Shown here: in pieces, positions 14,818 to 48,266 of the stretch | How positions within the stretch are numbered: the stretch's first letter is position 1 | Layout of the letters: each line of letters opens with the position of its first letter | DNA from: Tribonema minus | Lineage: Eukaryota > Sar > Xanthophyceae > Tribonematales > Tribonemataceae | Direction: 5' to 3' | DNA: 64,000 nt | Assembly: GCA_017506865.1 (NCBI GenBank) | Contig: JAFCMP010000523.1 | Location: 124,001-188,000, forward strand | The notes under the pieces: model-generated | The model's database searches: none | What the model saw: only the letters and a program-made list of their open reading frames with translations | What the model was told of the DNA's origin: nothing | Translations under genes and position numbers: made by a program

Positions 14818-17800
14818 TCAGTGAGCGTAGGCCGCGGTGGGCAGCTGCGCCGCGGAGTGCACCGTGCGCAGCAGGTCGTTGTACTGCAGCGACGGCATGG
14901 CGTCAGCGCCGTGTCCGGCCTGGCGATGACAGACGTGCGGCGGGAATGGGAGCGGCGGTGAGGGGTGAATTACCGTAGGTCACTTTGGCGCCCATGAGCC
15001 GACCATGAGCGCGCTGTTGAAAAGTTGTCAGCAGAAGCGATGCTCAGCAACCTGCGGCCCAGGCAGCACGCGCGCTTTGAAGCGCGCGAATGTTGGGAGC
15101 CCGGAGGCAGGCCAGCGTGTAGCTGAGAAACTCTAGCAACACAGAGTGCTCATTTTCAGTGCATGCAGCGAGCAAACAAGCAACATGAGGCGCCATTGCT
15201 GCTGCCCAGTATGGCACAGGTCAAGCGATGATGATCAACAATGTTGACTCTCAACACGGCCGTTGTCAGCGACCCCAAAGCACATGAGCCAGAGTCTTGA
15301 TATCCTCGGAGCAGTACACGCAACACACGACGCCTCACACACGTACCTTGTGTGCGGACACCGTCGAGATGCTGCCGTAGGCCTGCGCCCTGTGCCTGTG
15401 GGCCTTTAGCAAGGCTTGCAAGTCCTCGGCGTCCACCGCCAGACCTGCACACGCAGTGTTCAACACGGCATTTGCAAACGCTCAGCGTGCATTCCCTCCA
15501 CACTGTCTTGATGTGCTTGCGTCCACGTGCCCGGCCCTCATGGCCGCACCGCTCGGCAGGGCGTGCGAAGCGTGCGTGCATCGCGCAGGTCTGGGCTGCT
15601 GGCAGCGCGGCTTGTGTGACCGAACACGCAACAACTCCCGAGCATGGCAATGTGTCGGTGCATGGCAACGCATGTAATCGCAGCGCCACTCAGCGCCGTG
15701 GCAAGGCGCGCTGATAAGCCGGGTGCCACGCGGTTTCGTCGGGATGACATCAATATGGAGATCGCTTTTCACGCAGCACATGGGGCATCACGGTCTGTGC
15801 GCTGCAGCATTTGGTGAGATGTGAGCGTCTGCTGCCGCTGCAGAGCATTGCCACGTGGTTGTGCGCACGATGGCGGAGCACTTGTGCTGCCGGACCGGCG
15901 CGACTCGAGTCGACGCAACTCATGACTCGACTCACCATGCTTGTGGGTGATGCGCTGGAAGTCCTGGGCGCTGACGACGCCGCGCCTGTAGGGCGACTCG
16001 TGCTGCTTCAGGTCGGCCCTGCGCGGACGCGGATCGCACGCATTCGGCACGTGTGAGTCGCACGCTTGAGTCGCATGGAATGCGCACGGCCGGCTTTCAC
16101 ATTCAATCAAAGTTTGCTGATGTTTGCGGGTGTGCTCTCTGCCAGGCTGCATCAGTCCCGGGGACGGCTGAAGATGCGGCAGTGGCCCACAAAGCCACGC
16201 GCACTCTGCGCCGCCGTGCGCAGCGCGATCAACACCGCAGCCAGTGCCTTCCACCGACGCAAACAGCGCGGCAAGCGCTGCACACCCGCCTCCCCGCCGC
16301 TGACGCTCCACCAACCCCACAAACTGACAGCCAAGCACCACTTCTGGAGCAAATGGCGGTCACACGCTCTTCTTTTGCCGTCTGCACACTCAACGGTCAC
16401 GGCTACCGGCGCGCGCGCCGTCGCTCACTTGAGAGCGCCCATGACGCGCAGCATGTCGGCGCGCATGAGGCGGTGGATGTCCTGCGTCCGCGGCAGCTCT
16501 GCTGAGACGCCCAGTGACGGCAGCCCGCCGCCGCCGCCGCCGCTGCTGCCGGGCTCGCGCGCCTTGAAGCTGCCGGGCGCGCCTGCGCCGCCCGACGCGC
16601 GGCCGCGCACCCACACCGGCCTGTCGAGCACTGCCTCACGCGAGAGGGGGGCACGGGTGTGTGCGAATGAGTGAGTGAGGGAGTGAGTCAATGAGTGAGC
16701 GAGTGAGTGAGTGAGTGAGTGAGTGAGTGAGTGAGTGAGTGAGTGAGTGAGTGAGTGAGTGAGTAGTGCACCCACACCGGCCTGTCGAGCACAGCCTCAC
16801 GGCGCGAGAAGGGGCACGTGTGTGTGTCTGCGAGTGAGTGAGTGAGTGAGTGAGGAAGTGAGTGACTGATGGTGGTTCTGGCCGTCAAGTGAGCTTCAGG
16901 CCTGCGTTGTGCTGTACGGTGCGTGGTCACAGACCCCTCGTTTCGGGCCATGCTCCGATTTCAGGTTCTTGGGGGGGTGGGCGCTGCTGAAGTGTTCACT
17001 GTGTGGGGATGTGTATACTTTTTTTACATGTAGTATCAAGCCGTTGTCTGGGTGCGCGTGCAGCACTGGACCATCCGCGGGATGCACGACGAGCAGCTTC
17101 CCAGTACTCGAGCAAATGCATCACGGTGGGTGGGCAAACGACGTGTCCTCAAAGACTACGTTGAAGCCCATTAAGCTGCAGAAATGTGGACAAGAGGCTC
17201 ACAAGCCTTGCTGCCTTCGTGTGACAGCCACATCGAAGTTTGAGATTTGTCGTCACGGCCACCTCATACGGGGCCGACCAGCGCCGTTTCGCAACACCAC
17301 TCAATATGTACATGCATTTCATTTGCGACAGTGCATCAATTCAAGTGCCGCTGCGCGGCGAGTGACGCACCTACGCCCACTCGCGCGCAAGAGTTCTGGT
17401 TGGTGATGCGCTTGGAGTAGCCTGTGCACGTGCTGGCCAGGCTGTGAGGGGGGCACGGGGGGGGGGCAAACATGCGCAGCAGTGATCAGCAGGCGGCGAC
17501 ATAATGTCACCTGATGAAGTTGAACGCCTGCAATTGGGAGGTCCCCGCAGTCTAAGCAGTGCCCTGAGCGTCGAGCATAGTGTGCAGCGCGTTGTACGTG
17601 AGGAGGTGCATACTTGCCGACCATATAAGCGCACGATATAATAACAAGTGCCCGCCTGCCGCGAAGCAGCCTGAGTCACAGGCGGCGCAGCAGTGGCGAA
17701 CGCAGTACGCAACACACAGCGACACCGCATCCCCTCTGCTGACCACTACCAACTCGTGCAATCGCCACCGCACAAACCACCTGCCCCCCCCCCCCACACA

Positions 17801-20250
17801 CTCACCTCTCGGCGCTGGCGCAGCCGCTCAGCGTCCCCCCTACGCCCGCCGCAGCAGTAGCAGGACGCGCGCGCCCCGCCGCCGCCGCTGCCGCCGCCGC
17901 CGCCGCCGGCGACCGGTAGCCGCGCTGGCTCAGCGGCCGCGACGCGACGCTCGCACTGCTGCTGCCGCCGGCGCTGCCGAGGGCGCCGCGTGCGCGCATG
18001 GTGACGAGGCAGCGCTTGAGGAAGTCGGCGTAGGCGACGGCGCGGCCGCCGGGCGCCGCGGCGTCGTCGCGCGCGTGCTTGCCGATGTACGCCGCGATCT
18101 GGGGGGTAAGGGGGGGGGGGGGGGGGGGAGGGGGGGGGAGGGGGGGGTGAGCACCTCGAGCGGTTTGCAATTGCCGTCATCTGAATCACAGAGAAGGAGG
18201 GGGGTAAGGGTGCACGCGGCAAAAATTGTGCGAGCCACAATCTGAAGTGTAAGGGGGGCGTGGGGGGGGGATTGAGCACATCCAGGGTGTATACATTCCG
18301 CGATCTGAAACAGAGAGAAGAAGAGGGGTGAGGGTGAACGCGGCAACACCACGTGCGCAAGCGCAGCGGTCGCAGATTGGTGGCGCTTTCAGCGTAAGAT
18401 GTGTGGCTATGGCAGCTGATGCGTGTGAAGTGCCGATGTGCGGCTCACATTTCAAATATATGCCTTCAAGCTGCCCTGCAGGCGGCTGACTATGCGACAG
18501 TCCTTGCATAAGCACAAAGCCGGGGGCAGAGCAGACAGTATACTGGCGGCTTAGCGAGACATCATAGCCGCAGCTTGCCGGCGCGCCGCTGCTGTTGCTT
18601 AGCCACAAACAAGCACCGCCCGGTGCAGGACTACAACAAAGTTCAGCTCGCATGCTCAATACGCCAATACGGGCACACTACCACACATACACTCTTGCAC
18701 AAGTACTGCGACCGCAATACAAAGTGCGCGCGCAGCCCGCCGTCCGCACGCGCGCGCGCGCCTCATTTCCGTGGGCCCCATGCCGTGCGCGGCGTGCGTC
18801 ATCTTGAGGACGCCGTCCGATGCGAAGCCACAGACGGGGGCCTGCCCAGGTGTAGTGCCAGCATTGAGTTCAGCTCGCATGCTCAACACATCAGTATGGG
18901 CACACTGCCACAGGTGCATACATTCTTGGAGGACAGACACTGCCACCGCGGTGCAAACTGCGCGCGCCTCACCTCCGTGGGGCCCATGCCGTGCGCGGCG
19001 TGCGTCATCTTGAGGACGCCGTCGAAGTCGCGCTGGCTCACCCAGCCCGTGCGCCGCGTGTCGAGCTGGCGAAACGTGTGCAGCAGCTGCCGCCACCGCC
19101 CATGCATCTGGAGTGCCATCTGCTCAGGGAGGGGGGCGGGGGGGGGGCATGGCATCCGCGCAAGTCATGCAGCCGCCTGTGCATCTGTGGGTGGTGGCGG
19201 CATGAGCACGCACGGCCTACGAATGCGACAGCACCGCAGCCGCCGCGCAGCGAAAATGGCTTGCAGGCATTGCATATTGTTGGCACCAAGCACTGTTATT
19301 GGCACCAGCAAGCAACAGTGCGTGCATTGACGGCAACAGGGGGGAGGGAAGGCATCCATCCAAATACCCGACTCGCGAGCGGAAGAGGCGCCCGAGGCTC
19401 AGCTGCTGCAGCGTTGCGGCCGTGCCGCCCCACCGCCACCACACCGCTGCTTCGACGCTGCGCTACGCCACTGCTGAGCACTGCCATTGGCGCGCACCTC
19501 TCTCGCGCGCCCAGCACTCACCTTGATCTCGGCGGCGTCGACAAACCCGCGCGACCCCGGGGCATCCTCACCGCCGCTGCCGCCGCGGCCCGCCGCCGCC
19601 GCGCCCGACAGCGCCTCCAGCGCCGCCGCCGCCGCCGCCGCCGCGTCGCCCGCGCTCGCAACGCGCTGCAACGCCGGCGCCGTGGCGGGCCGCTGATCGG
19701 CGGCAGCACCGTGTGCGGCGGCGGCAGGTTCAGCGCCCGTGCGCAGGAAGGCCTTGAGGTGCGCGAAGTCCCACGTGCGGGGGACGAGGGGGGAGGCGCC
19801 GGCGGGGAGGGGGGCGGCGTGGCGCGCGAGCAGCTGCTGCAGCGCGCGGTTCTCGACGGGCTCGGTGACGCCGAGGTGCTTGAGGCACGCTCTGGGGGCG
19901 GCGGCGGTGGCGGCAGGGGGGAGGGGGCAGCGTGCGCGTATGAGCGCACGTCAGGCGGCCGCGCGTGAACGAGCTGACTTAGAGGGGGGGGGGTTAATGG
20001 GGCGCAGGTGCTGCAACACGCGCCGGATGTGGCGGCGCCGCAAGGCGCTGCAGGTTGCATGTGTATGAGGTGCAGGTTGAGCGCCGCCACCGACGAGTGA
20101 GTCGCGCTGCCGGCGGCAGCAGCATTAGCAAGAGCAGCAGCACCAGTAGCAGGAGCGGCGGCAGCAGCAGCAGCAGCAGCACCGCCAGCTCCAGCAACAG
20201 CAGCAGCGGCGGCGGCAGCAGCAGCAGCAGTAGCAGCGGCAGCGGCGGCA

Positions 20251-20346
<96 letters not shown>

Positions 20347-23300
20347 GCAGCAGCAGCAGCAGAACCATGAGCGTACCTGAGGCCCGCTGCATTGATGGCG
20401 TTGACTCCCTTGGGGTCCATGGCGGCAAAGCACTCAATGGGCCTGCTGCCAAAGGCCCTCTCTAGGCCCGCGCGCAGCAGCTGCTCCAACGCGTCTAGCT
20501 CCTCCTCGGAGGCCATCTCCTGCGGTCGAGCATGGTGCCATGTGGTCAGTTAGCGAAAGCAGTATGCGCTGTGGTGTGGGCATGTATAGCGGCACGTGCA
20601 GCATTCAGGCGGTGAGAATAAGTTGGTTATGGTCACGCCCCTGTGTGCAAGGGGCGGTGTTGAAAGTTACTGATTCACTGATTCCCCTGGGCCATCCCAC
20701 CTTGAGGGCTAGAGATGAGAACAGAAGGGAGCCAGGGGGGCAGAAGTCGCCGTTCTACGCATTCAGGAGGCGATCCGGCATAGAGCGGTACAGGCCAGGT
20801 ATTGACATGATGCATGACAACACGTGCGCCGCGCATGCCGCGCTTCCGCGCACCACTATGGTAAAGCTGTGCCGCAGGTCTGCCGGTGCCTGCGCCGCGG
20901 CTGCGCACGTATCATATCCAGCCAGTCCACAACAATTTTACAAGGGCGTTGCATGGACCAAGTCGCCCTCCGGTGCCATCACACACGCTGGGTTGACGCT
21001 CGCCGCGATGCTGCCGGTGCACACACAGCATCGAGTTCAACTACCTAGCACCGCTTCAAGAGCACAGCGCGCCGCCGCTCGACGACGCACAACTTCACAG
21101 TTGAAGCACCAATGCACAACTTCAAAGGCGTGACGCCCCTCGCGCATGCGCTCACCCGCTGCGCCAGCGCCTCCAGGTCCGCCGGCGTGAGCGGCGGCGG
21201 CAGCGCCTCGCTGTCAAGGATCGTCTCGATGAGCTCCTGGAACGACACGGCGCCGCGCGCGCGGCGGTCGTAGCGCGCAAACAGCTGGCGCGCCTGCTCG
21301 TCGGTCGCGCTGAGCCGCAGCGACACGAGCGCGTCGCGCAGGTCCGGCGCCACAATGTCGGCGGTCTGCGGGGGCGGCAGCGTCAGTGGCGGTGTGTTGG
21401 CGGCGACGGTGGCGGCGGCGGCGACGGAGGCAGTGGCGGTGGCGGCGGCGGCGGCAGCGGCAGCGCGGCGGTGGCGGTGGCGGCGGCGACGGCGGAAGCG
21501 GAGGCGGAGGCGGCGGCGGCGGCGGCACCGCGAGAGTGCGCGCGGGCAGGCAGGAGCAGAGGGGGTTAGGTCCTGATGGCGGCATTAGCAGCGGCAGGCA
21601 CACGTGTCTGGGGCTAGTGGAGCGGGGCATAGGTTTCGGACAAACCAGCTACCACCGTGCTGACACCTGACACGAACTCCATGTGACGCAACTTCACCTG
21701 CATGGCACAACTTCGCTGCTCCTTCAGCGACACTGACATGGCCGAGACATGGCAGTATATAGGGCGCTGGCGGTCGGCCTCAGTGTCATGATGCTCGGCC
21801 TCAGTGCCATGATGCCAGGGCCATCAACGAACTGGTAAAGCATGGTAAAGCACTTGATTTTGCCGGTGCTACATTCGGTGCAAACAAAGCAATGCATCGC
21901 TCAGTCCAGGCTGGCGAGTGAGCAACCGACAGCAGTTGTTCGCACAGCATCCCGCATCGCTGGGACAAATCACGAGTGCTGCACTGTACGCACTTCCCTC
22001 GTCCCCGCCAGCCATGCATGCACACATTACGGCACACGTCGATTGTGGTGTGACCACACACTTACACACATGCACACACCTGCTTGCGAGTCACGCGTCG
22101 GAATGCGCGCAGCATCTCGTGGGGGCCCGCCTTCATGCTGGCGGCGATGCGCGCGCGCAGCCGCGTGTGCAGCTCCGCGAGCGCAGACTGTCCGCCGCCG
22201 CCGCAGCCGCCGCCGCTGCAGCCGCCGCTGACAATGACGCAGCCGCGGGCGCTGCGCTCCTGCGCAGCAGCGATCTGCAGAAGGGGGTGGGGGATGGGGG
22301 GGGTGGGGGGATGGTCAGGGCGCCGCAGCTGCTGAGCAATGTGGTGCTTCATAAGTGTTGTGGTGGTACAATGTGTGCTCTTGGACAGCTCGTCAGATTA
22401 GAGGATCATGCAGGGTGCCAGTGCTCTGCGTGTCTGCTGCGGCGCACCTGGGACCGGCATCGGCGGTGCGCAGCGATGCACGCGTGGCGGCGTGCTTCGG
22501 GCGGCCTCGGTGCAGTGCATCCAGCCACTGTTTATTGCACGCCGAGCTCAGGTGATCGCCACGCGCACGCAGCATGCAAAGTCGTTCCAAGGCGCAACGA
22601 CCCGCACGGCCCTCACCGTGGTCGGTGCCATCTCGACCCCCAATCGCGATTCTGGCGCTTTTACCAACATTTTAAGCCTCACCTGGCGTGGGTATGCATT
22701 TCTACCTCACTTAAATTCCAGCCCCATTTTCGATTGTGATTTTGAGCCATCATTGAGGCGTGATTGGCGCCTTCCACGGCAGGTCCGTGCTGGCGGTGAC
22801 GCTCAACGTGACCCCAACTTCAACAGTACTCATAACGTCAACATTAGCCCTAATGTCTACCTCGACCCCAACCCTCACCTTGACGTGGTCGGCGCCCCTC
22901 AACCATGTTGGTGGCGACGCTCAGTGTGACCCCAACTTCAACCCTGCTTCGACCTCAATCCTAGCCCTCACCTTAGCGTGGTCTGCGCCCTCTACCAGCA
23001 GGCCCGTGTTGACGGCGACGCTCAACTGCAACTCTACTCCTAACCGCAACCCTAGCCCTCACCTTAGCATGATCCGCGCCCTCCACCAGCAGGCCCATGT
23101 TGACGGCGACGCTCAGGTTAAACCTCAACTGCCACCCTACTCCTAACCTCAGCCCTAGCCCTACTCCTAACCTCAACCTTAGCCCTCACCTTAGCGTGGT
23201 CGGCGCCTTCAACCAGCAGGCCCGTATTGGCGGTGGCGCTCGCCGTGACCCAAGAGCGGAACTCGGCAAAGTCAATCATGCCGCTGCCGTCCTCATCAAA

Positions 23301-26300
23301 CTTCTGAAAGAGCGCCTTGGACTCCGCATCGCTCAGCTTGATGCCGAGCTGTCATCGGCGGCAGCGTGAGGGCGTGGTGACGAGCGAAGAGAGGGGGGCG
23401 ATTAGCTCGCGCGGCGCGTGAGCTGGCGCAGGGTGCTTCAAGCGCGCAGATGCCGTGCAGTGCATGAAATATACACTTCAAAGTATATCGACAAAGTCAA
23501 TCATGCTGCTGCCGTTCTCATCGAACTTCTGAAAGAGCGCCTTGGCCTCCGCATCGCTCAGCTTGATGCCGAGCTGTCATCGGCGGCAGCGTGAGGGCGT
23601 GGCGGCAAGCCCAGAGAGAGAGGGAATAAGGTCGCGCGGCGCGTGAGCTGGTGTGGGGTGCTTCAAGCGCGCAGATGCCGTGCAGTGCGAAAAATATACA
23701 CTTCAAACTACATCGGCAAAGTCAATCATGCCGCTGCCGTCCTCATCAAACTTCTCAAAGAGCGCTTTCGCCTCAGCATCGCTCAGCTTGATGCCGAGCT
23801 GCGATCGGCAGTAGTGTAAAGGCGCGGCGGCGAGAGGAGAGAGGGGGGGAATAAGGTCACGCGGCGCTTGTGCTGGTGCGGGCGCTTCGAGCGCACGGCT
23901 GCCACGTAGTGCACACGGTATACTTCTACGTTTGCTGTGCGTGGCTGGACGCTGACGCTAGTGCTTGTCACAGCGTGCACCCTGTTGTGCCCCCACTGTG
24001 CACGCATGAGCAACTACTACGTTGAGGCTGCAGTGAGAGCGGTGGCGCCTGCGCGGAGTGCCTGTCCGACGCCGGCATTGATCGCGCACTGAGGGCAAGC
24101 CTTGAGGCAACGAACTGGCGCCGCGGCAGCACGGCCGAGCACTGTCATGGCCACCCTGCTGCAGTCGTCGCTAGCAGCGCACGTGCCACGCTGCGCAAAG
24201 CCACACTCTTGTGCATCGGGGACACGTTCTACAGGGCTTGTGCGCAGTGCTGTGCGAGAAAACCTGCAATCTCGCCTCAGCATTTCCAGGAGATTCCTGA
24301 GGCACCTCCAAGCGTGCTTGCGATGCGCTCTAGACAACCCTCAAAAGTGCAGACGCCAAAAGCTGCTGCATTTCAAGCGCGCAGTAACAACGCAATCCCG
24401 ACGCGCGCTGCCGATGCCACGTGTGGCAGACATGCTCGGAGTGTCACCTGCTTAATGCTGGTGTTGAAGTCCTGCTCGTTGAGCAGCGCTGCACGGCCCT
24501 TCATGCCGACCTTGAAGTTGCGGAACGCGCGCAGAACCTCGTACTGGCCACCCGACACCTGTGTATTAGGTGAAGGGGGGGCGGGGGGGGGGGGGCAAAT
24601 GCAGGCAGAAAGTCGCAAAACATCAGAATGGCACGCCCTTCAACTTCAAGTGCTGAACAGCTGACGGCGCACCATGGCATGTCTCAGCGCTCGCGGCAGC
24701 ACAGGCGCCCTGACACATCGCTGACACACTACGGTTTAATCATGGGCCACTGCACGGTGTGTGCAATTGTGGCACGCGACGATGCGATGCCGAGCGGTGC
24801 CACGCGTGAAGGGCGTTTGCTCGCAATGCCGTTCTCACGAGGGCGTTTGCTCGCAATGCCGTTCTCACGAGTCCGACTCGGCAGCGAGCACTATGCGCCG
24901 AGCATAACACTTCCAGGGGGCTGCTCGAATCCCCGCCGTGCCTCGCGTCCCATGCCGACGGCGGCGCGTGCGCAAAGCCGCAGCAGCGCCGGCAGCAGCA
25001 ACAGCAGCGCCCGATTGGCGCCACTGTATGCAGTTCTGTAGAACCGGCGTGCGCTGTCACAGTCACGCGCTTTCATCACATGCAATGCGGGCAGCCACAG
25101 GCACACCAACATTCACATGCGACGACTGACGAATGACTCGCGGATGACTCATGTCGACTTGTGCTCGACTCATGACTTTCCTTGGCGAGTATCTTGGAGC
25201 GCAGCTCCTCCTCGGGGGTCTGCTTGGCGTCGGCGCAGCTGCCCACGCGCGCGCCCGCGCCGTCGCCGCGCCTCTCGACGTGCGACGGCAGCCTGCAGCG
25301 GCAGCGCGCGCGTGTGTACGAGACGTGATGGCAGCGGCGTCAGGGCCAGGGTGATCTTGGAGGCACGATTACTTGTTGTTGTTTTAGGGAGCCACGAGCA
25401 GCACTTCAAGACCCGCAGCGGCACTCGCATTGCGAGATTCGTGCCGTGTTCTAACAGGAGATGCCACTCGCAGCGTTGTTCAGTAGGCGCGTGGCGCGGC
25501 GGCATTCAGCAGGCGTGGCGGTAGGTAGGTATAGCTGGTAGGCATCAAATGTGGCAGCGCTCAGCAGGCGTGGTGTAGGTAGGTATAGCTGGTGAATGTC
25601 AAATGTGGCAGTGCTGAGCAGGCGTGGCGGTACGTAGGTAGCTGGCAGGTGTCATATGTGGCAGTGCTCAGTGAGGGTGGCGCCACGGCAGCGCTGTCGT
25701 TTTCACTGTTTGTGTCGCTTTCAGACCTGGCCTGTCGCCGTCACAGCACACCTGTCACAAGGCAATTCATCGTACAATGCCTCTGACCATCATGAGCACT
25801 GGGCACTGCAAAACTACAAGCATCCGACGCTTACAACCCAGTATTCAGTCATCATTGTCATTGCAGAAACTAGCGCTTTTTGCACGCGAATGCACTCGCC
25901 TCAGGCCGGTGACGGCCTCCTTGCCCTCCAGCCACTGGCGGAACTCGCTGTAGTCTATCTCGCCGCTGTTGTCGGTGTCAAAGTGCGCAAAGAGCTCGCG
26001 CATCTCCATCTCGGAGAGCCCCAGGCCGTTCTGCTTGATGGAGTCGCGGAACTGCGGGGTTGAAAGAGGGCATACATACATGCCATACGAGTGTCAGGGC
26101 CTCATTGTGTGGCACATGCAGGGTCAGAGACAGGTCTTTCAAGCTGTAGTCTATTTTGCCGCTGTTATCGGTGTCAAAGTGCGCAAAGAGCTCGCGCATC
26201 TCCATCTCGGACAGACCCAGGCCGTTCTGCTTGATGGAGTCGCGGAACTGTGCAGCGCAGCGCGCGGGGGATGGAGTGGGGGGCATACATACATACATGT

Positions 26301-29300
26301 GAGCGTCAGGGCCTCTGAGTGTGATAGACGTGTAGGGTCAGGGACAGGTCCTTGAAGCCGAATCGAGCGGTGTTCATGCCAGGACTAATTTGGACAACGC
26401 ATTCACTCAAACACCCTCCGCAAGCACCCAGCCAGACGATTTAGCTATACTGCGAAATTTCAAATTGAGGTATACTCGTGAATGTTATCCCATGAACAAG
26501 AACTTTGAACTACGCTCTCAAAGTGGTAGTAGACGGCGTACATACATACATACCTCAAATTGAAGTACGCTTGACCAAGAACTTCAGACTACACTCTCAA
26601 GTAGTATTACAGTAGGCAGCGTACATACATACATACCTCAGCGTAGTCCAGGAACAGACGTCTGCCGGCGCCGGCGGGCCTGAAGTGCCTGAACGCGCGC
26701 AGCATCTCAAAGGAGCCCCCCTTCACCTGCAGCGGTGGGGCAGGCGGCACGCGGAAGTCACAGCACAGCATGTCAGCACGGGCAGAGCCTTGTGTGTGCC
26801 AGTGCTGCGGGCACAGGGACCCATGCGCATGCATTGGAGCGCTGCTTTGCCTGTCGCACGCAGAGCGACCAGCGCGCGAGACAGCAGTGCACGGCAAGCT
26901 TGCCCTGCTTTTGGGAGCGTCACGCTATGACTACTTCAAGTGCAACTCTCTTCAACGGCGGCATGGACCGCTTCGTCAGGGCCCAAGGATATGCTGCAGT
27001 GTCGGCAACGCGCACATGCGCCGCGCTCCCTCTGCGACTCCCTCCCTGGGACTGGCTCTGGCTTCATGCTGGCAAACTTTAAGTTGGAACTTCAACTGCA
27101 TTTGGTAGCGTCACGAGGCGGCCCGTTTCACCTTGGAGAGGATCTTCTGGCGCAGCAGCTCGTCCAGTCGCGCCTTCTCCGCCTGAGCGCGCAGCGGCGA
27201 CACCGCGCAGTAACTAAAGCGCGTCAGCAGTGCTCAGCTCTGGGCGGTGTGAGCAGCAGATCAGCGGTGGGTGGTACCGCCGCGCAGTGTCAGGTTCACG
27301 GTTCTCACTGAACAGGCACGCCACTGTAAGATGACATGGCATTGTTGTACTTGCACCGGCGCCGCTCTCATGATGAGAAGCAGTACCTTTCGACAGAGGA
27401 AGGCATGCAGGACGGCATTGTCACGGACTGAGAATCAGCTGAGGGGCGCACCTGGGAGAGCGACGGCGCGTCGGGATCGGACTTCTGCCTGTTGAGCCGT
27501 GCTATCCAGGTGGAGCCGTCATAGTCATCGGGAACCAGGGGGTTGGTGCACATGAGCCTCTTGTCCTGAGGGCGGTGACACGACAGGGGGCAGGAATGAT
27601 GGGGTGTCACAGCATGAGTGCTCGCAGCATACTTCGTGTTCGTGGCAACACCCGCAGGTGTACAGTTCACAATACACAGCTGTACGCAGCTCAACACTGT
27701 ACAGCTGAGCACTGTGTCCAGATGCCTGAGCGCTGCGCACAGCATTGAGCGCTCTCGCACTCTGAGCACCAGCGCAGATGACAGTCCACGGTACACAATC
27801 AGCGTCCAGTGTGCGCAGCTGAGCACTGCATGTAGCTCAGCTCCGTGCAGGGCTACTCACAGCACTGCTGAGCGCTGAGCGTTGTGTCATGCACCTTGAG
27901 CTGGCGCAGGTGCTCCTCCTCCTCCAGCGCCCAGTAGTCCTGCGGGTTCTGCCCGGAGGCGATGGAGCGGCCGCTGCTGACCTTCTCCACCCACACCATG
28001 AAGTCAGACAGATCCACGGCGCCGTCGCCGTTGTTGTCCATGCGCTGCGTTACACGCACGGTGCACGAGAGGGACGCAACGCGTGAGGTTCAGTGCATGG
28101 TTCCACAGCGCTTCGTGCTCGACCGTGAGGCAGCGGTGGCGCTGCTACAATTTCCACGGCGCCGGCGCCGTTGTTGTTCATGCGCTGCGTGTGTGCACAA
28201 TGCGTATGCGAGGGCACGCGGCGCGTGATGTTGCTGATGCGCGGTGACGCGGCAGCAGTCTGTAGGTGATCACAAAGCTGGCGGTTGCTTATGCAATTGC
28301 ACGTTGCGATGCTGCGGTTGCGCTCGTGTTCCAGAGCAGCAGCTGTTGCTGCCCATGCACTTGCGCACCACCATGTACGGTGGCGTGTTGCTCGAAAGCC
28401 GTCGACGCACGCAAGTTTACCGTCGCCGACTTAAGCATATTGCTGATTAGACTGGTGTGCAGCAACACTCGACAAGAGGCTGCGGCAGTGTCCATGGAGC
28501 AGGAACAGCGGCAGCGCCCGCTGCAGCACTGCGCAATACGGTCCCTCAGGAACCCTGCTCCACGGAGCACCGCGGCGGCACTCGACACAGAGGCCGCAGC
28601 AGCGCTCAGCAAGGCGAAGCACTTGCCGCAGCAGCAGCAGCAGCTGTGCTCAGGATCCCCCCCCCGCTGACCTCGAAGACGCCAGGGGACCTCATGGCTG
28701 ACAAAGAGGCTACAACAGTGCTCAACAAGGCAGAGCTGATACCGCAGCAGCGCTCAGCATCCCCCAATCACGTGGCAGCGTTACCTTGAGGACGCCGAGG
28801 ACCTCGTCACTGACAACAGAGGGCTGCAGCAGTGCTCAGCAAGGCAAAAGCGGATGCTGCAGCAGCAGCGCCCAGGACCTAACCCTAACCCCAACCTTGA
28901 CCCCAACCCCAACCCTAACCCTAATCCTCCATCACGCGGCAGCGCTCACCTTGAAGACGCCAAGGACCTCGTCGCCGTCGGTGAGGTGCTTCATGAGCGT
29001 CGCCATCTCCGCGCGGAACGCCTCCCACTGCAGCTTGCCGGAGGGCGCGCCGCGGCTCAGCTTGCGGAACGCGCTGCAGGACGAGGTGCCGGACACACGA
29101 GACATGAGAATTTGGGCGTGGCGCTGCCGCCAGTGACATGATGGCAGTGATGCTGCAAGTCAACGGCGCCAGACACATGAGACATGAGAATGCGGGTGCG
29201 GCGCTGCCGCCAGCGATACATGAGTGCAGTGACGGCGGTACGGCAGACAGTACACAAGCTGAAGGCGCTTGTTGAGGACTGTTCCGGGACTTGCAGCACG

Positions 29301-34587: not shown

Positions 34588-37583
34588 TTAGAACGTGAGC
34601 ACGACCGAGCGCAGCTCGCCCGTGCGAAACCACTCGCGCAGCGTCGGGTCCGCGCCGCAGTCCAGCACGCCGTTGAACAGGTGCAGCAGCACGGCGCTGT
34701 GCGCGACGACGGCGACGTGGCGCCGCGGCGTGGCGCCGACGCCCGCCGCTGCTGCCGCCGCCGCCGCGCTGCCGTCCGCGCCGCCGCCGCCGCCCGCTGC
34801 CGCCGCCGCCGCTGCCGCTGCCGCGCTGCCATTTGTGCCGCCGTCCGTCTCAGAGCACTGCTGCTGGAGCCACAGCAGAAAGGCGTAGGCGCGCGCGAGG
34901 ACGTGCGCCGAGGGCTCGCGCGCGTCCGCGTCCCACGTCGGGTCGTGCTCGTGCTCCACGAGCGCGAAGTCGACGGCGGGGAACTGCGCCGCGAGCTCCG
35001 TCTTGGTGAGGCGCCTGCGCGAGAGAGATCGCGCGTGCGCGGGGGCGGCGGCGCATGGCGGTATGTGCGGTCAGCGGGCGGCGCGGAGGCATTGGCGGTG
35101 CTGCGCCACGCGCGTTGCCGTGCATGTCGCGCTCGTGCTCATGCAGATGCTGGCGGTGTCGAGCCGAGCCTCCAGGCACTCGGTGCGCTGAGGTGCTGGT
35201 GATGTACGAGTTCAGTAACACTGTCTGTGGAAGCGGACAATGAAGGTGCAGCAGTCCGCCGCCTTCACGTGCAGCGGCGCATGCGCTTCGTGCCACGCTC
35301 TCACGCGCAGTCAATTTCAGCTGGTGTACGTGCAATGAAGCGCCAATCGGCGATGGTGGCCCCACACATGGCGCAATGATGATGGCCACAGAGATGGCGC
35401 TCGTCACCGCGCTTGTGCGCGCAGCACTCGTGAAGATCCAGCTGTGCTACAGCACCATGCAGCAGTCCTTGCGCCCTTGCAGGCAGCCTGTATATGCATA
35501 GTTGGCCCCAGGCAGCTCTGGTCGTTTGGACAGGCAGGCAGGCAGCGAACACAAAAACCTCTGCTGTCCCCTGCACCACCTCCGCTACCTTGAACAATCA
35601 CAGCAGCGCTCGCCAACAACGTGACCGTGGACCGCGCCCCTCCCCAACATCACCTTCCTGACCGCCGACTTCACTTCGCAGAACGCAAGAGCAGGGCGCA
35701 CACCCCCAAGACGGCCAGACTTCACACTTGAAGAAGGGGGGGGCGCCACCTTTTGTCGCAGTGGTGCAGGCCGCCCTTGCTCGTGCAGCCCCTCGTGCGC
35801 GACGAGGCGCACCGGCACAACTTCACACTTGATAAGGGGAGCGTCACCTGTCGCAGTGGTGCAGGCCGCCCTGCTCGTGCAGCCCCTCGTGCGCGACGAG
35901 GCACACCGGCACAACTTCACACTGGTTAAGGGGAGCGTCACCTGTCGCAGTGGTGCAGCCCCTCGTGCGCGACGAGGCGCACCGGCACGACATCAAATTT
36001 GAATAACGGGGGGAGCGTCACCTGTCGCAGTGGTGCAGCCCCCCCTGCTCGTGCAGCCCCTCATGCGCGACGAGGCGCACCGGCAGGCCGCGCGTCGCCT
36101 CCAGCGCCGTCTCCACGGCGCGGCGCAGCGGGCTCACGTACACGACTGCGGGCGCCGCGGCCGTGGCGACCGCGCCGAGGTGCGCCGCCAGCATCGGCTG
36201 CGCCTGCGCCGCCTGGCTGCGGCCCAGCGGCGTCAGGTGCGCGTCCTCCGGGCACAGGGGGTCCGAGTAGGCGTTGCCCTGCGGTGGGAGGGGGGGGGGC
36301 GGAGCGAGGAGGGGTGGGGGCGCTGGTGGCGCGTGTGATGCTGCTGGTGTGATGGGGAGGGGAGGGCGCGAGGAGGGGTGGGGGCACTGGTGGTGCGTGC
36401 GATGCTGCTGGTGTGACGCGCTGCGGTCGCATGGCTGCAGGACTGCGACAGTGTGTGCGGGCGCTGATATGCTGCTCATAGTTTCAACAGCTGGCAGGTA
36501 TTGGCGCATCAGTACAGCTGTACGTGCCATGTGTGGCCTTCTCGTATTCAGCATGGCGTCAAGCAGCGTGTGAGCAAGTGCTATCAAGTCCTGTTGGAGC
36601 TTCCCGAAAGTGACTTCTGATGGAGGTGGCGGCATATGCACAAATCATGTACCGAGTGTGTAACGTTGATGCATGGCGTTGGCCGGGCCTAGTGGCGCTG
36701 GCTGAAAAGTCAAGCTGGCTGCCATTCCCTCTTGTGTAACAGAAATGCTAAGGCAGGCAAGAGAGCATGAAAGAGCATTCACATGCTCGCAAGGATGACT
36801 GAGCTGCACTGCTGCACAGACAACGAGCACACAGTCACCTGGTGTGCTCCTCTGTCATGTACTGTTGCTCTGACGCTGCCAGGTAACTCTCACACCATGT
36901 ACGCAACATGTTGCTCTGCCAGAGTGCGTACTTTCCACATGCACTTGCTGCAATTGAAACAACTGAAATGCTCTTGCCCAAAACTGCAGGAGGCAATACG
37001 CTTGAAATATGCAAAGTGCCACGCCGATTGATGTCCACGCTGAGCGTGCATATAAGACGCCTATAGAGTGGATGTTGTGACCAGGCTCAAACATCTGTAT
37101 GATGGCCATCGCCAGCGAATCACAGATCTGTTCAGCAAAAAGAGTGATTGTATCTGCAAAATGCAACTTTGAGCAAGCGCTGCGATTCTATTTTTCGCTC
37201 CTCACCGGCTTGCCAGCCTTGGCCCACTCCGCACCCCAAACATTGTGCTCCCCGATGCCGTGCCTCATGAAGTGCACGATCCACGAGCCCGGTGCTGGTG
37301 CATCGCCGTCGTAGGTGACAGCCTGTATGCGGATCGGGCGCTCGCCAGCTGTGGCAACCGCGGATGCCCGCAATTCATCTAGTGTCGCCTGTGCCTCCGC
37401 TTGCTCGTGTGGCGCGAGGGTCGGCTTGCCCGTACTGCCACTGCTGATGACTGACAATGGTTCAGACATTCTGATCAAAGCACTGCTTCGATGCCTGTGA
37501 AAAAAGCCTTGTTTGGTCGAAAAACTGGATGTCGGCCTGATCAACAGAAACAACAGCAGAGCGCTGAGAGTTCTCGTATGCAT
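34588..37583 (-). CDS. Histidine-phosphatase superfamily (plant-type phosphoglycerate mutase-like) protein, probably organelle-targeted
   Basis: Exons 37583-37206, 36278-36022 and 35014-34588 (1062 nt, 353 aa; junction phases 0 and 2). The N terminus is a hydrophobic signal (LSALLLFLLI), then SSFSTKQGFF and a basic stretch, like a bipartite pre-sequence for a complex plastid. Exon 1 ends with the catalytic FMRHGIGEHN motif (first catalytic His). Exon 2 has DAHLTPLGRSQA and VYVSPLRRAVETA. Exon 3 starts the LTKTELAAQFPAVDF and VEHEHDPTW block and ends with VVAHSAVL, the second catalytic His. The order matches plant PGAM-like proteins in which a CDKRR-type sequence precedes FPAVDF; here it is HCDRRLTK across the second junction. 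An Ala/Gly-rich insert lies in exon 3. Substrate is unknown; many relatives are broad phosphatases, not glycolytic enzymes. Confidence 0.92.
35728..36087 (-). repeat. Tandem copies of an exon 3' end and donor in the PGAM-like gene
   Basis: The real end of exon 2 (36087-36022, coding VRLVAHEGLHEQGGLHHCD) is followed in the intron by copies at about 35987-35942 (18 nt shorter), 35910-35848 and 35818-35753. Two copies keep the GTGACG donor; the last has a changed one. Spacers share CACACTTGA. Confidence 0.93.
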
Positions 37584-41719: not shown

Positions 41720-41952
41720 CGCAGCTCCGCAGGCGCACATGAGCTGCGCACCAGCAGCGTCTAGGCCGGCTAGCGCTTCGCTCGCGACCCCTTCCATGCG
41801 CCGCCGCCAGAGCTGTTGAGCCCGGCCGGCTGTCTATCCTCCGCGAACAGATGCGTTGCCCACAGCCAAATGCGCATGCATCATGCCGCAACACGCCCGC
41901 CTGGCTGCCTATCCATTGCATACAGCCAAATGCGCATCATGCTACAACGCGC
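41720..41952 (+). repeat. Dispersed repeat, copy A, with internal about 64-bp duplication
   Basis: Matches, in inverted orientation and with clear divergence, the segment at 49333-49510. Shared blocks: GCAGCTCCGCAGG, CCAGCAGC, CCTTCCATGCGCCGCCGC, GGCTGTCTATCC and GCATGCATCATGC. The last block is partly duplicated at 41896-41952. Confidence 0.8.
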
Positions 41953-42051
41953 CCACCGCCGCCCCTGCCGCCGCCCCTGCTAGCGGCCGCCCCTGCTAGC
42001 CCCCCCCCCCCCGCCCCCCCCCCCCGGCAAAGCTCCCCAGCGCGGCTGCTT

Positions 42052-45000
42052 TTACCCCTCCACCGCCCCCGCGCGCCACGGCGGCCAGTACTTGAATACC
42101 GCGCGCCCGATGACGTTCTCCCGGGGCAGGAAGCCCCAGATGTGGCTGTCCAGCGAGTGGTTGCGGTTGTCGCCGAGGACCATGACCTTGCCCGCGGGAA
42201 CGACCATCGGGCCCCACTCGTACTCTGTCGCAGGGGGGGGCCAGGCGTGGGGGGTACATGCCGTCTGGTGAGGAACGGAGCGCGCGCTTGCGCGATACGC
42301 AGTCTCTGTGTCTCAGCCGTAGTTCAACAGCACGGCCGCCCGGAGGTGCGTTGATGAAGTTGCTGGTGCTGACACGGCAAGTGCGCAGTGTTGCAGTAAC
42401 GGACTACAGCCGTGAAGTGAGGCATGACACAGCGCAAAACGCATCCTGCAAGACGTTGCGGCGGTGCTGCAAGGCATGGCGCTAGGCGTGCCGTATAGAA
42501 CACGGATCGCACCAGAAGCCCCTTCAAACATATCTGGCGACCCATGTGATGCAGCGCGTTACTGCTGAATCAGTGCTGATGGCCCAGCACCGCAAGCAAA
42601 GGTATGTGGAGCGTCACCCGGATGCGTGGAGCGTCACCCACTGACACTAACAAAGCGCACTGCGGGCTATCTGCTGCGCTCGCCAGTTCGTCCCTCTGGC
42701 GCATTACATACTGGTGAAAGTCAGCGACGTGCAGTGCTGTGCACGGCTCGCACGGCACGCATCAGTATGTACAACAGTGTGCGCACAGTCACTTCGCCCC
42801 TCAGCAAAGTTATGCCGCAAATCGCAGTGGGGGTGTGGAGCGTCACCCGATTAGCGCAACTGCTGCAGCGCAGTGCGGACTATTCGCTGCGCTCACCAGC
42901 TGATCCTGCTGGCGCATAGCATACTGCTTGTGCTGAGCCATGTGCGGTGCTGTGTACGACTTGATTGGCACGACAACGACCTCGGAGCATGCACACCCAC
43001 TTGTCCACTCAGCGAGACTTTGCCACAAACAGTCCTACAATGTATACAAAGTGGCATGCAGAGGCTGCAGTGGCTTTGTTCAAGTTCTGCATCCTATTTG
43101 GCTCCCTCTCAGCTGCCTACTCGGCGCTATTGCTTCGCCATCAACTTTCGCCGGTTATGCCATGAAGCCTCTCCATGGCTTGAGTGCTGCTGTCATGTAG
43201 AAGTGCGTCATAAGGCGCCGCTCTTCGCAGCTGACCAATGAGGAGTGCAGTCAACAAATCGTTCGATGTTCTGCTTAGTAGGACTTGCAGCGAAATTGCG
43301 CCCACCGACTGCTAGAAGTCTTCAATGCACACTCGTCAACCCCACATTCCTGGTCTTTTAGCAAAAACAACCACCAGCGCACACCAACTTGAGCTGCGGC
43401 AGCTTGCGACAAAGGTGGAGCTGAGCAAGGCCGTCTTCGCCAACTCCATACAGGTGCTGCCTATGATTACTACATGTGACGAACAACCAGTTTACCACAC
43501 GTAGAGACTGACAGCAGTCACGAAGAAGTTCGTCATGAGGTGCCCGCGCTATGCAGTTGACCAATGAGGAGTGCAGTCGACAGGACGTACGACGTGTCGC
43601 ACCGCAGCACCCGCAGAGAAATTGCGCCCATCTGCTACGAGACGAGTAGAAAAGTAGTACATTGATGATCAAACAATACCGCATGTAGAGACTGACCTGG
43701 CTTGTCCGTCACAAACGGCTCGTCTTGCGCCTGCCCGTTGAGGTAGACCTTCCCCCCCCTGATCTGCACCGTGTCGCCCTCCACCGCGACGATGCGCTTG
43801 ATGAGCGCCTGCAGCCAGCCAGCAGCAGCGGGGCGCGCGCCACAGCGATGCGGGTGAAGTGTCAGCACGCTTCAGCCAGTAGACCGCAAAGCTGAGTGCA
43901 GGTAACTCGCTCGAATTTCAACGGCCGGGCTGTAGCAGCCAACGGCGTGCGGGCAACTGGCAGATGCATTAATGAATACACACACACAGGTGCCCGGCGG
44001 GATGCCGGCAGCCGACAGCGCGTTGGCAACTGGTAGAGGTACTACGTGACTGCGTGCACGGAGGCGGCGGCAGCCGGAAGGCATTGCAAGGCGCCCAGGG
44101 CAGGTCCATTGGTGGTGACGCGTAGCCGCTCCAGATGCTCATGCCTCCAGGGCATGCTAAACGCGATGCATGTTGAAGCTTTTGGCAATTGCATGCTCAT
44201 TGCCGCTTGAGCGCTTGGCTGTTAGCTACGGCAGTTACACTTGCGGCGGACAGACTCTCGCACAGCCACTGCCAGCAGCACGCGAGTGCCGTCAGCTTTC
44301 TAATGCATTTTGCGCCTCGATGTCTACATCTGGCAGTGTGCACCAGCAGGCCAATGAGCAGCACGCCTCTGCATTGCATCAATGCACATGTCTGCGGCGG
44401 ATGCTCAGTGCTCAGCGACTTGAGGCGCTCACCTCGTCGGTGCCCCTCGCGCTGAACAGGCTGAACGCTTCTGGCGGGTAGAAGACCACGACGTCGTGCC
44501 GTGAGTACGGCCGATAGTATCGCGTCACCTGCGCAGTGACAAGAGGTTTGCAAGGGCCAGGTCAGTCTCAACGCTGAAGAACATCTTGCCCATGCGCTGG
44601 TTTTGTGAGTAGTCCTGTGCTTTTCTTCAGTGAAACACAGCTTTTAGCATTGACTACCTGCATGCTCGGGACATTCTTGTGCTTTTGTCAAGGAAGCCTG
44701 TTTTGCACACTGAGGTAGGGTTTACATTGAATTATTGTAGGATGTAGGAGTTTGTGCGCACTGCAGTCGTAGCCTTTCTTGCATGTGCATACAACACGAT
44801 CACATCAGACGTTCTTGACTTCGCAGGACATCAGCTGGTGCATTGTAGGTCCGGGCCACACCCCGCAAGTGTGCCGGTGCTCCTACCACGCATTTGCAAC
44901 AAGTGCTGAAGTGAGTGCTCAGTGTCAAGAGGGCGAGTGATTCGACGTCAGTACCTTTTCTACTGCCAGCTGATCCCCCACTTCAAAAGTGGGGAACATG

Positions 45001-45743
45001 CTCAGCGACGGTATGTATCGCGGCTCCATGACGAACGTCCTGAACAGCAGCGCTGCCGCCAGGCTTGAGCCGTACACCTTGAGGTCACTGACACCGTCCA
45101 CTGCCCACCACCGCTTCAGCCCTGCAGGTGGTGTGAGTAGTGAGTAGGTGCACAAGTCGTGCAATTAACACTGAGCTGTTGCTTGCAGCAGTGTGGCCGC
45201 AGCTGGATGACTTTGGTGTCGCAGCAGCAGACATGAAGCGCCATTTTGTGGTGCCTGTGCCGCAACAGCACGCTTGGCGGCCAGCATCAACAAGGGCAAG
45301 CCGCTCACGTGCTGGATGTTATGACCGCCAAGACGGCGTGCTGCACTTGATGTGCTCCCATTACGTCAATGAGCCCAGCATGTAATGAGAGGAGACATGA
45401 GAAGCTGTTGAAGAGCAATGCATTATGCAAAGCTTGACGGCGAGCAATCGTGCATGCATGATTAACTCCAGGTTGAACCACCACGCGATGCACCGCCGGT
45501 ACCTGCGAGCAGCCCTGTCTCTTCCGACAGCTCTGCGATGGGATCCTGGTCAGCAGCAGTGTCCGCTGGGGCGGCAGCACCTTCCTCGTCATCTACCTTC
45601 ACCCACCGCGGCGGTCCCCGGCTGCTGAAGTAAGTCGATGAATGGCGCAGTCCGCCAAACCGTGGTGGCCGAGGTGCAAATGCCGCAGTCTGCCCCAAGG
45701 TGGCAAGCGCAATGCCGGCCAGCAGAGCTGACCTCGCCACCAT
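42052..45743 (-). CDS. Plastid-targeted signal peptidase I (S26 family, thylakoidal processing peptidase type)
   Basis: Cleaves signal or thylakoid-transfer peptides with a Ser/Lys dyad. Exons 45743-45503, 45121-44955, 44528-44433, 43808-43697, 42224-42052 (789 nt, 262 aa; junction phases 1, 0, 0, 1). It opens with a signal peptide ending in QTAAFAPRPPRF, the AFAP-type cleavage site of proteins sent to red-derived complex plastids. Catalytic boxes: YIPSLSMFPTFEVGD (nucleophile Ser in SMFPT, exon 2), YSRHDVVVFYPP (exon 3), LIKRIVAVEGDTV (general-base Lys, exon 4) and VLGDNRNHSLDSHIWG plus NVIGRAVFKYW (exon 5). All family boxes are present and in order. A membrane anchor probably lies around SLAAALLFRTFVM in exon 2. 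The frame upstream of 45743 has no earlier ATG. Confidence 0.94.
42600..42975 (-). repeat. Tandem duplication (about 215-bp period) in signal-peptidase intron 4
   Basis: GTGGAGCGTCACCC occurs near 42608-42635 and again near 42835. Each is followed by similar sequence containing GCGCACTGCGG or GCGCAGTGCGG, CTGCGCTC and CTGGCGCAT. Confidence 0.85.
43190..43700 (-). repeat. Second duplication in signal-peptidase intron 4, next to an exon donor
   Basis: GACCAATGAGGAGTGCAGTC occurs near 43234 and 43558. GTAGAGACTGAC, the donor side of the exon ending at 43697, occurs both there and at 43501. Confidence 0.8.
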
Positions 45744-45949: not shown

Positions 45950-48266
45950 ATGAAAATCAAGACCATCAGCCGACTGGAGGAGCACTATACACGAGACTGC
46001 AAGACAGATGTAGTCAAGATTCACAGAAATTTGGACCCAAAGCTGCATCCATTCGAAAAGGCGAGAGAATATGGCAGAGCGCTGCAGGCGACCAAGCTTG
46101 ACAAGATGTTCGCCAAGCCTTTTATCGGAGCGCTGGACGGCCACACGGACGGAGTGTTTTGTACGGCAACAAGGTGGGGCATGCATCGGAGCTACATCAG
46201 TGCCAGTTGAAAGCATTCGCAGGCATGACCATTCGCATCTGATAGCACTTAAGTGTGTGAAGACCAATAGTTGAAGTTGCTACAGAGTGCCGAGAGGGCG
46301 AGCGCGAAGTACCTAGTGCAGTTCCTCTCGGGCCCGTTTGTCGGCGAGGTCAGCGAGTGGGACCTCAGCCTGGCTCATGACCTTCACATCCATATGTGCT
46401 GCAACTGAGTCAACTCCAACACCCCCTACCCCCGTGCAGCCCCAAAAACCTGGTGCAGTTCCTCTCCGGCGCGTGCGACGGCGAGGTGCGCGTGTGGGAC
46501 CTCAGCCGGCGCGCGTGCGTCTGGAAGGCGGCGGCGCACACGGGCTTCGTGCGCGGCGTCGCGGTCACCCCCGACGGGCGCTCCTTCCTGTCCGCCGGCG
46601 ACGACGGATTGGTGAAGCGCTGGGACTTGGCGATAGCGAGCGATCTGGAGGAGCGGCCGCGCCCCACGGCGCAGTGGACGGGCAAGATGGGGTTCCGCGC
46701 GCTGGACCACCACTGGGGCGACGCGACGGTGAGCGGGCGGGGCGGTTGCGTAACTGCCAGTGTAACTGCCGAGAAGCGAGGCTAGTAAGCCGGCGGCGCG
46801 GACGCAGTGCCGTAACGGCTGCGCCGCTGCGGCGATGCGCCTGGACGCCATTGTCTGTTATCGCCGCAAGCTCATCGAAGGGGGGGGGGCGGGACTGCGC
46901 TGCACGAGTGATGTGCAATCACGCCGTGCCCAGTTGCAAACAATCTTCTTGCATATGGTATGCAAGCTGGTCGTCATGCCGCAACCGCTCAGGTAAGCGG
47001 AAGGGCCGCAGGCTCACTACCTCAGTTTCTTTAACGCAAGCGCGCAGTGCACACAGCGCATACGACACAGAAGCGGTGAATGAGCCGCAGCCGCCCATGC
47101 GCATGACTGATGCGGCACCTTGCTGAGCTATGACTGATGCGTCAAGTGCCGTGCTAAGGTGCTGCGTCTGCAACGACACAGTGTCTGCACATTGCCGCAT
47201 CGCGCTGCGACAATAGACATCGCGACTGGGCCGCACATGATGGATGCAATGCAGGTCTTGCCTTCATACACCCCAGCTGCATCCCCCCGTCCCCCCACAC
47301 GTCCCCCTCTTCCCCCTCGCATGCGCGTCAGCCTTCCACAATACCTACTACACTTCTCATCCAGGCGCCATGCGCACAGCTGACAGTCACTGACCGCAGC
47401 GACAAAAACGCCGCGCGCCTGTGCCGCCGCCCCGCCAGTTTGCGACGGCGAGCGACGCGGTGGAGCTGTGGGATGCGGAGCGCGCGGAGCCGACGCACGC
47501 CTTCCGCTGGGGCGCGGACGCCGTCAACAGCGTCCGCTTCAACCCCGCGGAGCGCTGCCTGCTGGCGAGCACGGGCTCCGACCGCGGCGCCGCGCTGTAC
47601 GACGCGCGCGCCGCGGCGCCGCTGCGCAAGGTCTTCCTGCGCATGCGGTCGAACGGCGTCGCGTGGAACCCGCGCGTCCCCGCGCAGTTCGCGCTCGCGT
47701 GCGAGGACCACTGCGCGTACACGTTTGACGTGCGGCGCCTCGGCGCGGCGCTCGTCGTGCACAAGGACCACGTCGGCGCGGTCATGGCGGTCGCGTTCTC
47801 GCCCACGGGGCGCGAGCTCGCGACGGCGGGCTACGACCGCACGCTGCGCATCTTCGGCGCGCGCGACGGGCGCTCGCGCGAGGTGTACCACACGCAGCGC
47901 ATGCAGCGCGCGTTCTGCGTCGCGTACTCGGCGGACGCGCGCTACGTGCTCAGCGGCTCCGACGACACGTGCGTGCGCATCTGGAAGGCGCGCGCGAGCG
48001 AGCGCCTCGGCGCGATCGTCCCGCGCGAGGCGCGCCGGCTGCGCTACCTCGACACGCTCAAGCGCCGCTACGCGGACATGCCGGACGTGCGCCGCATCGC
48101 CAAGCACCGGCACGTGCCGCGCGCCGTGCGCGGCGCGGCGCGCGCGGAGGGCGTGCAGCGCGACAAGGCCAAGCGCAAGGCGGACAACGTGCGGCGGCAC
48201 GCCAAGGACGGCGGCGACGCGCCCGTGCCGGAGCGGCGGCGGCGCGTCATCGCGGAGCAGACGTGA
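45950..48266 (+). CDS. DCAF13: DCAF13/Sof1, WD40 protein of the small-subunit processome
   Basis: Nucleolar WD40 protein needed for 18S rRNA maturation; also a DDB1-CUL4 substrate receptor in animals. Exons 45950-46173, 46440-46728, 47439-48266 (1341 nt, 446 aa; 445 is typical). The N terminus MKIKTISR, RNLDPKLHPFEKAREY and ATKLDKMFAKPF is diagnostic. WD repeats follow: LSGACDGEVRVWDLS, HTGFVRGVAVTPDG, ALDHHWGDATFATASD, SVRFNPAERCLLAS, GAVMAVAFSPTGREL and YVLSGSDDTCVRIWKA. The C-terminal Sof1 domain has YLDTLKRRYADMP, VRRIAKHRHVPRAV and a basic tail. Codon use in exon 3 is extremely GC-rich at third positions, producing long spurious open frames on both strands. The exon 1 donor is GTGGGG; a diverged copy of the start of exon 2 lies in intron 1. 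Confidence 0.97.
46290..46378 (+). repeat. Decayed copy of the start of DCAF13 exon 2
   Basis: Still readable as KYLVQFLSGPFVGEVSEWDL, beside the true KNLVQFLSGACDGEVRVWDL at 46446-46505. The copy has lost the WD-repeat Cys-Asp pair and has no clean acceptor. Confidence 0.88.

Follow-up and report, generated by a model that had tools for sequence, protein, structure and literature searches.

Genes of the Window

The stretch of DNA analysed here (C520:124001-188000, 64,000 nucleotides, hereafter the window) is nuclear DNA of the xanthophyte stramenopile Tribonema minus, the genome of which comprises 158.18 Mb in 554 contigs. It carries an EF-hand gene, a PGAM-like gene, a signal-peptidase-like gene and a DCAF13/Sof1-like gene, and this report is concerned with intron repeats that copy the end of a neighbouring exon together with its splice site, which will be referred to as echoes. 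The genes were modelled as follows.

14821..33555, minus strand: EF-hand gene, 20 model exons named A-T
EF-hand exons A-G, minus strand: 33555-33139, 32709-32470, 31777-31671, 29917-29795, 29073-28950, 28044-27895, 27565-27452
EF-hand exons H-N, minus strand: 27182-27132, 26726-26637, 26051-25900, 25238-25181 (K, uncertain), 24558-24448, 23348-23190, 22274-22080
EF-hand exons O-T, minus strand: 21365-21156, 20519-20377, 19891-19522, 19119-18973, 18098-17806, 16620-16429
Further EF-hand exons from the public protein P0121, minus strand: 16018-15936, 15444-15347, 14934-14821
34588..37469, minus strand: PGAM-like gene, exons 37469-37206, 36278-36022, 35014-34588
42052..45743, minus strand: signal-peptidase-like gene, exons 45743-45503, 45121-44955, 44528-44433, 43808-43697, 42224-42052
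45950..48266, plus strand: DCAF13/Sof1-like gene, exons 45950-46173, 46440-46728, 47439-48266

The 20 EF-hand exons A-T join in frame to a protein of 1149 aa. Most of the model exons are matched by the public Tribonema protein P0121 (JKP88DRAFT_264966), and several by homologues from Scytosiphon and Ectocarpus. P0121 differs from the model in that exon K is absent, exon T begins 11 nt earlier and the PGAM gene is fused on. We treat the PGAM-like gene as separate because it has its own stop at 34588 in the model. The uncertain exon K (25181) would require the donor GAAAGT, and exon J (25899) a GC donor. The protein of the three-exon DCAF13 model agrees with a Tribonema minus record at 100% identity along 446 aa, which identifies the genome as that of a xanthophyte and not of a green alga, the group at first suggested by its composition. 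For the signal-peptidase-like gene, the five exons of which are in frame, the family name was taken from an earlier reading of this DNA (the original prediction) and from inspection by eye without a profile search.

Echoes in the Introns of the Window

Comparison of the window with itself yielded 36 self-matches, 34 of them direct and spaced by at most 637 bp. In the 28 curated introns 17 repeat families were distinguished: seven with a donor, five with an acceptor, one with an exon end only (DCAF13) and four in the intron interior. The exon slice in the echoes was always connected via the splice site to intron sequence. In the following list, "true" denotes the copy at the exon itself.

16607..16865, minus strand: acceptor echo of EF-hand exon T; true 16607-16698, echo 16768-16865
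18640..19023, minus strand: donor echo of EF-hand exon R; true 18867-19023, echo 18640-18817; 51 nt of exon
22758..23241, minus strand: donor echoes of EF-hand exon M; true end 23170-23241, several echoes in 22758-23114
23263..23913, minus strand: acceptor echoes of EF-hand exon M; unit of 225 bp in 2.8 copies; true 23263-23464, echoes from 23488 and 23713
25947..26358, minus strand: acceptor echo of EF-hand exon J; true 25947-26144, echo 26143-26358; 105 nt of exon; extra exon in P0121
26493..26640, minus strand: donor-side repeat of EF-hand exon I; exon part 4 nt only, borderline
28013..28232, minus strand: acceptor echo of EF-hand exon F; true 28013-28090, echo 28153-28232
28759..28973, minus strand: donor echo of EF-hand exon E; true 28924-28973, echo 28759-28808
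29431..29845, minus strand: donor echoes of EF-hand exon D; true 29763-29845, echoes within 29431-29692
29890..30415, minus strand: acceptor echoes of EF-hand exon D; unit of ~112 bp
31011..31691, minus strand: donor echoes of EF-hand exon C; many short copies; 21 nt of exon
35712..36085, minus strand: donor echoes of PGAM exon 2; true 35983-36085, echoes from 35712; 64 nt of exon
46311..46507, plus strand: echo in DCAF13 intron 1; 46311-46370 copies 46448-46507, the similarity beginning 8 nt inside exon 2
25508..25671, minus strand: interior repeat in the EF-hand region; 54 bp unit, no junction spanned
29073..29232, minus strand: interior repeat by EF-hand exon E; inner copy starts at the exon E boundary
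43189..43630, minus strand: interior repeat in intron 4 of the signal-peptidase-like gene; no junction spanned

The original prediction had described about a dozen junction repeats in the EF-hand, PGAM and DCAF13 genes, each unit consisting of an exon slice and its splice site. The self-matches bear out the genes, the composition of the unit and the number, and such cases also occur in other genes, including a kinesin exon described below. The related case claimed for the signal peptidase is weak. Echoes mislead gene finders: P0121 includes the acceptor echo at 26116-26253 as an extra EF-hand exon ahead of the true one, whereas the brown-algal proteins have one copy.

The junction repeats are local tandem duplications across an exon-intron junction that have since decayed. 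Family periods measure ~64-230 bp, with a few larger, the detection being blind to units much below 60 bp. The best-preserved families run head to tail without filler, the aligned length being about equal to or greater than the offset (offset/aligned length 225/426 for 23263/23488, 196/217 for 25947/26143, 66/67 for 5318/5384 of locus L006 and 229/377 for 6016/6245 of locus L019), and in older families decay is too strong to judge filler between the copies. Assembly duplicates can be dismissed because the copies differ by 10-35%. The exon part of the echoes spans 4-105 nt with a median of 51 and is at most 65 nt long in 23 of 25, whereas 53% of the exon parts exceeded 65 nt in uniform simulations (Kolmogorov-Smirnov p ~1e-4 against the real ones).

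Excess of Repeat Families at Splice Junctions

Family counts were obtained from the window together with a sample of the genome, in all 0.16% of it and mostly with predicted exons. Locus L003 (GC 0.715, dense intronless frames) was dropped from all exon and family analyses, as were exons with a gene-finder score of 10 or less. Introns of 250-1800 bp flanked by two tested exons were retained, a filter that removes loci L008, L010 and L011 and leaves 87 introns. A home-made gene finder supplied 59 of these 87; applied to the exons on which it had been trained, it predicted 23 of the 33 curated ones with exact boundaries.

The 87 introns contained 32 families, 12 with a donor, 13 with an acceptor, 1 with an exon end and 6 interior, so that 26/32 (0.81) touch a junction or exon end. 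The fraction is 13/17 in the curated genes and 13/15 in the remaining introns. In the null model, duplications fell evenly over exon-intron-exon, the protein had to remain unchanged, introns decayed freely, exons were fixed or drifted at synonymous sites, and detection was the same. Mean junction fractions of 0.42, 0.43, 0.39 and 0.50 were obtained (80 replicates, highest 0.71), and 0.42 on the curated introns (40 replicates, highest 0.64). Variants with real intron sequence, balanced deletions and an exon part capped at 65 nt gave 0.33, 0.33 and 0.28, respectively (40 replicates each), and four detection thresholds gave 0.43-0.44 (16 replicates). In total, 0.81 was reached by none of 256 null replicates. 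When each real family was slid along the intron that holds it, 11.3 junction families were expected against the 26 found, a number reached in 0 of 200,000 draws.

The excess does not fade with stringency. From lenient to strict thresholds the real junction and interior families numbered 28:7, 26:6, 25:5 and 17:2 (0.80, 0.81, 0.83 and 0.89), the strongest repeats being the most junction-biased (17/19). For the simulated fraction to come to 0.73-0.77, duplication at junctions has to be ~10-15 times as intense as in the interior (reached in 5/24 and 7/24 replicates). All intron families taken together are denser than those of gene-free DNA (Poisson p = 4e-5). The density of interior families (6 in 68.7 kb) resembles that in gene-free DNA (2 in 32.1 kb; L013, L014, L021 and L022), and the excess therefore sits at the junctions. 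The gene-free stretches were picked for absent predicted exons, and test pieces of two of them were unique or low-copy and held no long frames. We conclude that, within this sample, the families are genuinely biased towards junctions and that ordinary random duplication as modelled does not account for it.

Echoes in Other Genes

Loci outside the window were named by eye from their predicted proteins, without a profile search. Echo families were found in a kinesin gene (L012), a topoisomerase I gene (L019L020), a WD-repeat protein gene (L009) and a P-type ATPase gene (L011), whereas 18 tested introns of a Sec7-like gene gave one interior family and no echo. Genome-wide profile searches yielded, among the best candidates, at least 137 kinesin and at least 99 myosin exon matches. 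At least five extra short matches, picked out by eye, duplicate the end of the exon next to them and lie on the side predicted for an echo; two are weak (E 0.0025 and 0.21). One of the five, which came from this independent search and lies outside the intron sample, belongs to the kinesin P-loop exon on contig C511. Two donor echoes follow that exon, one of 151 nt at 90% identity and one of 64 nt at 89%, and the donor GTGCGTCACC is kept in the first of them.

Polarity and Decay of the Echoes

The original prediction had stressed that acceptor echoes lie upstream and donor echoes downstream of the true exon and that copies decay with distance. Both features were observed, the nearest echo beating the farthest in 11 of 15 untied families, but neither is evidence in itself, as any tandem duplication that preserves the protein gives both. 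Polarity is forced: a donor duplication keeps the first copy on the exon and leaves the second in the intron, an acceptor duplication does the reverse, and any other arrangement changes the protein. The gradient is expected since in tandem arrays the copy beside the original has on average separated most recently; simulated tandem duplication gave it in 54 of 74 families. By themselves, polarity and gradient thus prove no special process.

Identity between true copy and echo is 0.797 on the exon side and 0.681 on the intron side (25 families), a difference to be expected if only one exon copy decays. Differences peak at third codon positions, with 0.103, 0.093 and 0.182 for positions one to three in true-echo pairs and 0.143, 0.146 and 0.248 in echo-echo pairs (29 families). 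This third-position excess fits an exon that accumulates synonymous changes and from which echoes budded on separate occasions. The resulting gaps, 0.131 for true-echo and 0.079 for echo-echo pairs, compare with 0.097 and 0.075 in a uniform neutral simulation and exceed the 0.014 and 0.021 of a simulation that favoured junctions and allowed exon parts of no more than 65 nt. In a matched neutral simulation, with junction duplications whose exon parts corresponded to the real ones, the echo-echo gap was reached in 9/24 replicates at T = 0.6 and in 4/24 at T = 0.9.

As had been claimed, splice-site copies are multiplied and introns enlarged. GT or AG is retained in 46 of 51 echoes, compared to 0.81 in one neutral simulation (p = 0.11). 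Introns with a junction family have a median length of 910 bp (n = 20) compared to 636 bp for the others (n = 67; p = 0.004), a comparison that is partly circular.

Origin of the Junction Excess

We put at roughly 0.5 the probability that, in Tribonema minus, junction-straddling DNA (~64-230 bp) undergoes tandem duplication at a much higher rate than the rest of the intron. A tandem duplication across a junction would put the exon end and its splice site into the intron, while the outer, original junction would still join the same exons; the protein would remain unchanged, and the event would be tolerated and could recur. The inner copy would then decay, and later rounds would shift older copies outward. 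We infer that the excess arises when duplications form, at a mutational hotspot, and not by slower loss of copies. Its cause might be that transcription or splicing leaves breaks or paired nicks at splice sites, which are then repaired by fill-in and end joining. It is a tentative proposal, to which we give somewhat less than even odds, that splice junctions in this lineage act as hotspots because transcription or splicing at exon edges drives repeated tandem duplication.

Several points weigh against such an origin. Position by position, junction probes (exons of at least 60 nt) were repeated in 37/231 cases (16.0%), compared to 128/970 (13.2%) in the scan of intron positions (Fisher p = 0.29). 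The junction probes predicted to stand out thus exceed exon-middle probes (2/190) but not intron positions. The intron-position scan tallies every echo copy, and the junction:interior ratio of 1.21 compares with 0.41-1.00 in eight simulated replicates run through the same pipeline; the lack of a junction excess in this first comparison is overturned because that simulation and the family counts show one. Of the 63 families counted when every locus is included, only 36 reach a confidently placed junction, many others lying where no exon is predicted, and the gene-free sample is small (32 kb, three places). The exon part of 65 nt is a tendency and not a strict limit, because the kinesin echo has ~112 nt. 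The true-echo gap of 0.131 was exceeded in 0/48 replicates of the matched neutral simulation (highest 0.108), which weakens the hotspot reading and strengthens slower loss. The link of the duplication process to transcription is one that we only infer.

Random local tandem duplication plus selection, with exonic events purged and intronic or single-junction events tolerated, would account for polarity, gradient, decay and the missing exon-middle echoes, and it agrees with a raw scan in which coverage is much the same at junctions as at intron positions. It is nevertheless unlikely, as its simulated junction fractions averaged 0.28-0.50 and never came to 0.81, whether introns were shuffled or real, ancestors were shortened, exons drifted synonymously or deletions balanced the duplications, and the sliding expectation falls far below the real count. 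To a similar degree we doubt that duplications arise evenly and that exon-end copies are merely retained or kept similar through decoy-site selection, gene conversion or slower mutation. The large true-echo gap, the retained splice dinucleotides and families such as that of L011 at 3792, in which exon parts are nearly unchanged beside unrecognisable intron parts, speak for such retention, and the gap could reflect mild constraint or conversion as well as faster decay of real introns. Against it, the echo-echo gap lies inside the matched neutral range at T = 0.6, both gaps lie inside the range of the uniform neutral simulation, staggered budding off a drifting exon is expected to give the third-position excess, and the junction fraction climbs instead of dropping for the strongest repeats. 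It is very unlikely that gene prediction, a small sample or the assembly created the pattern artificially: most of the introns lean on the home-made gene finder and few genes dominate, but the homology-checked or in-frame curated subset alone shows the bias, and so does the conserved kinesin exon. The recurrent junction process of the original prediction thus stands in part, insofar as the bias exceeds random duplication with protein-level selection; as the source of the excess we lean towards more frequent origin rather than slower loss.

Intron lengthening is usually credited to mobile elements and random insertions. Echoes represent a recognisable, datable record of introns lengthening from their junctions, each preserving, like a fossil, the exon end as it stood when the copy was made. 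Should the junction bias extend to the whole genome, sequencing could test whether DNA duplication is linked to transcription or splicing. If splice junctions are indeed hotspots, RNA processing would be coupled to heritable change of intron length, and introns would lengthen at their ends and accumulate dead copies of their own splice sites.

Comparison with Known Systems

The pattern had been supposed to be undescribed, and we found no account of junction-anchored echo arrays in the open-access literature, which omits most subscription papers and does not contradict that claim. One paper links a splicing factor to nucleases acting on R-loops (PMC8155215). A close likeness is to rice, in which small tandem duplications are the commonest insertions of 50-200 bp and are ascribed to patch repair of nicks (PMC7971508; reviewed in PMC7407515). 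Like the echoes, these products of patch-mediated double-strand-break repair are head-to-tail, mostly 50-200 bp and local, tolerated outside exons and purged within them. Unlike the echoes, no junction preference and no outward arrays of splice sites are reported for them in the sections of these two papers used here.

Tandem duplication has also been described as an origin of new introns in a potato RdRp gene (PMC4974935) and in Drosophila (PMC2891723). There, too, the duplicated gene segment holds splice signals, the potato piece comprising an intron together with an exon; mention is also made of a duplication of 83 bp within an intron. Those cases concern a new intron or exon, whereas the Tribonema echoes lie inside an existing intron and leave the exon number of the models unchanged. 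Intron gain was rejected for the curated models, in which the echoes are intronic and each exon is represented once in the protein. Introners share with the echoes a recurrent process acting on introns but are one element dispersed over many genes, whereas the echoes copy their own neighbouring exon (PMC9860276). They were rejected for the one echo tested, as the query 46440-46720 gave two matches among the best candidates, both at the DCAF13 locus. Tandem exon duplication likewise makes a local copy of exon DNA; the echoes differ in holding one exon end in nearly all families and no complete exon, though the family at 5082-5340 of the kinesin gene (L012) may contain a whole small exon. The echoes are a variant of small tandem duplication and, in the curated models and for the one echo tested, respectively, neither intron gain nor introners.

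Further Observations

An Rfam scan of the window at gathering thresholds gave no match. Telomere-like short repeats of AGGGTT / CCTAAC occur in the window at 3221-3273, 28878-28928 and 59297-59332, and also inside intron repeats near 22850-23190 and 29530-29730. An inverted pair at 41709-41892 and 49338-49520 (79% identity over 187 bp, 7.6 kb separation) may be a dispersed element.

The excluded locus L003 (C1:50001-60000) carries long, near-intronless frames on both strands and two inverted arrays of ~206 bp units. It is unlike C1:1200001-1220000 (GC 0.582) and possibly represents foreign or inserted DNA. At locus L008 (C100:50001-60000), positions 1-2634 hold a near-perfect inverted repeat (99.6% identity, 1137 bp) that encloses a coding repeat of short units.

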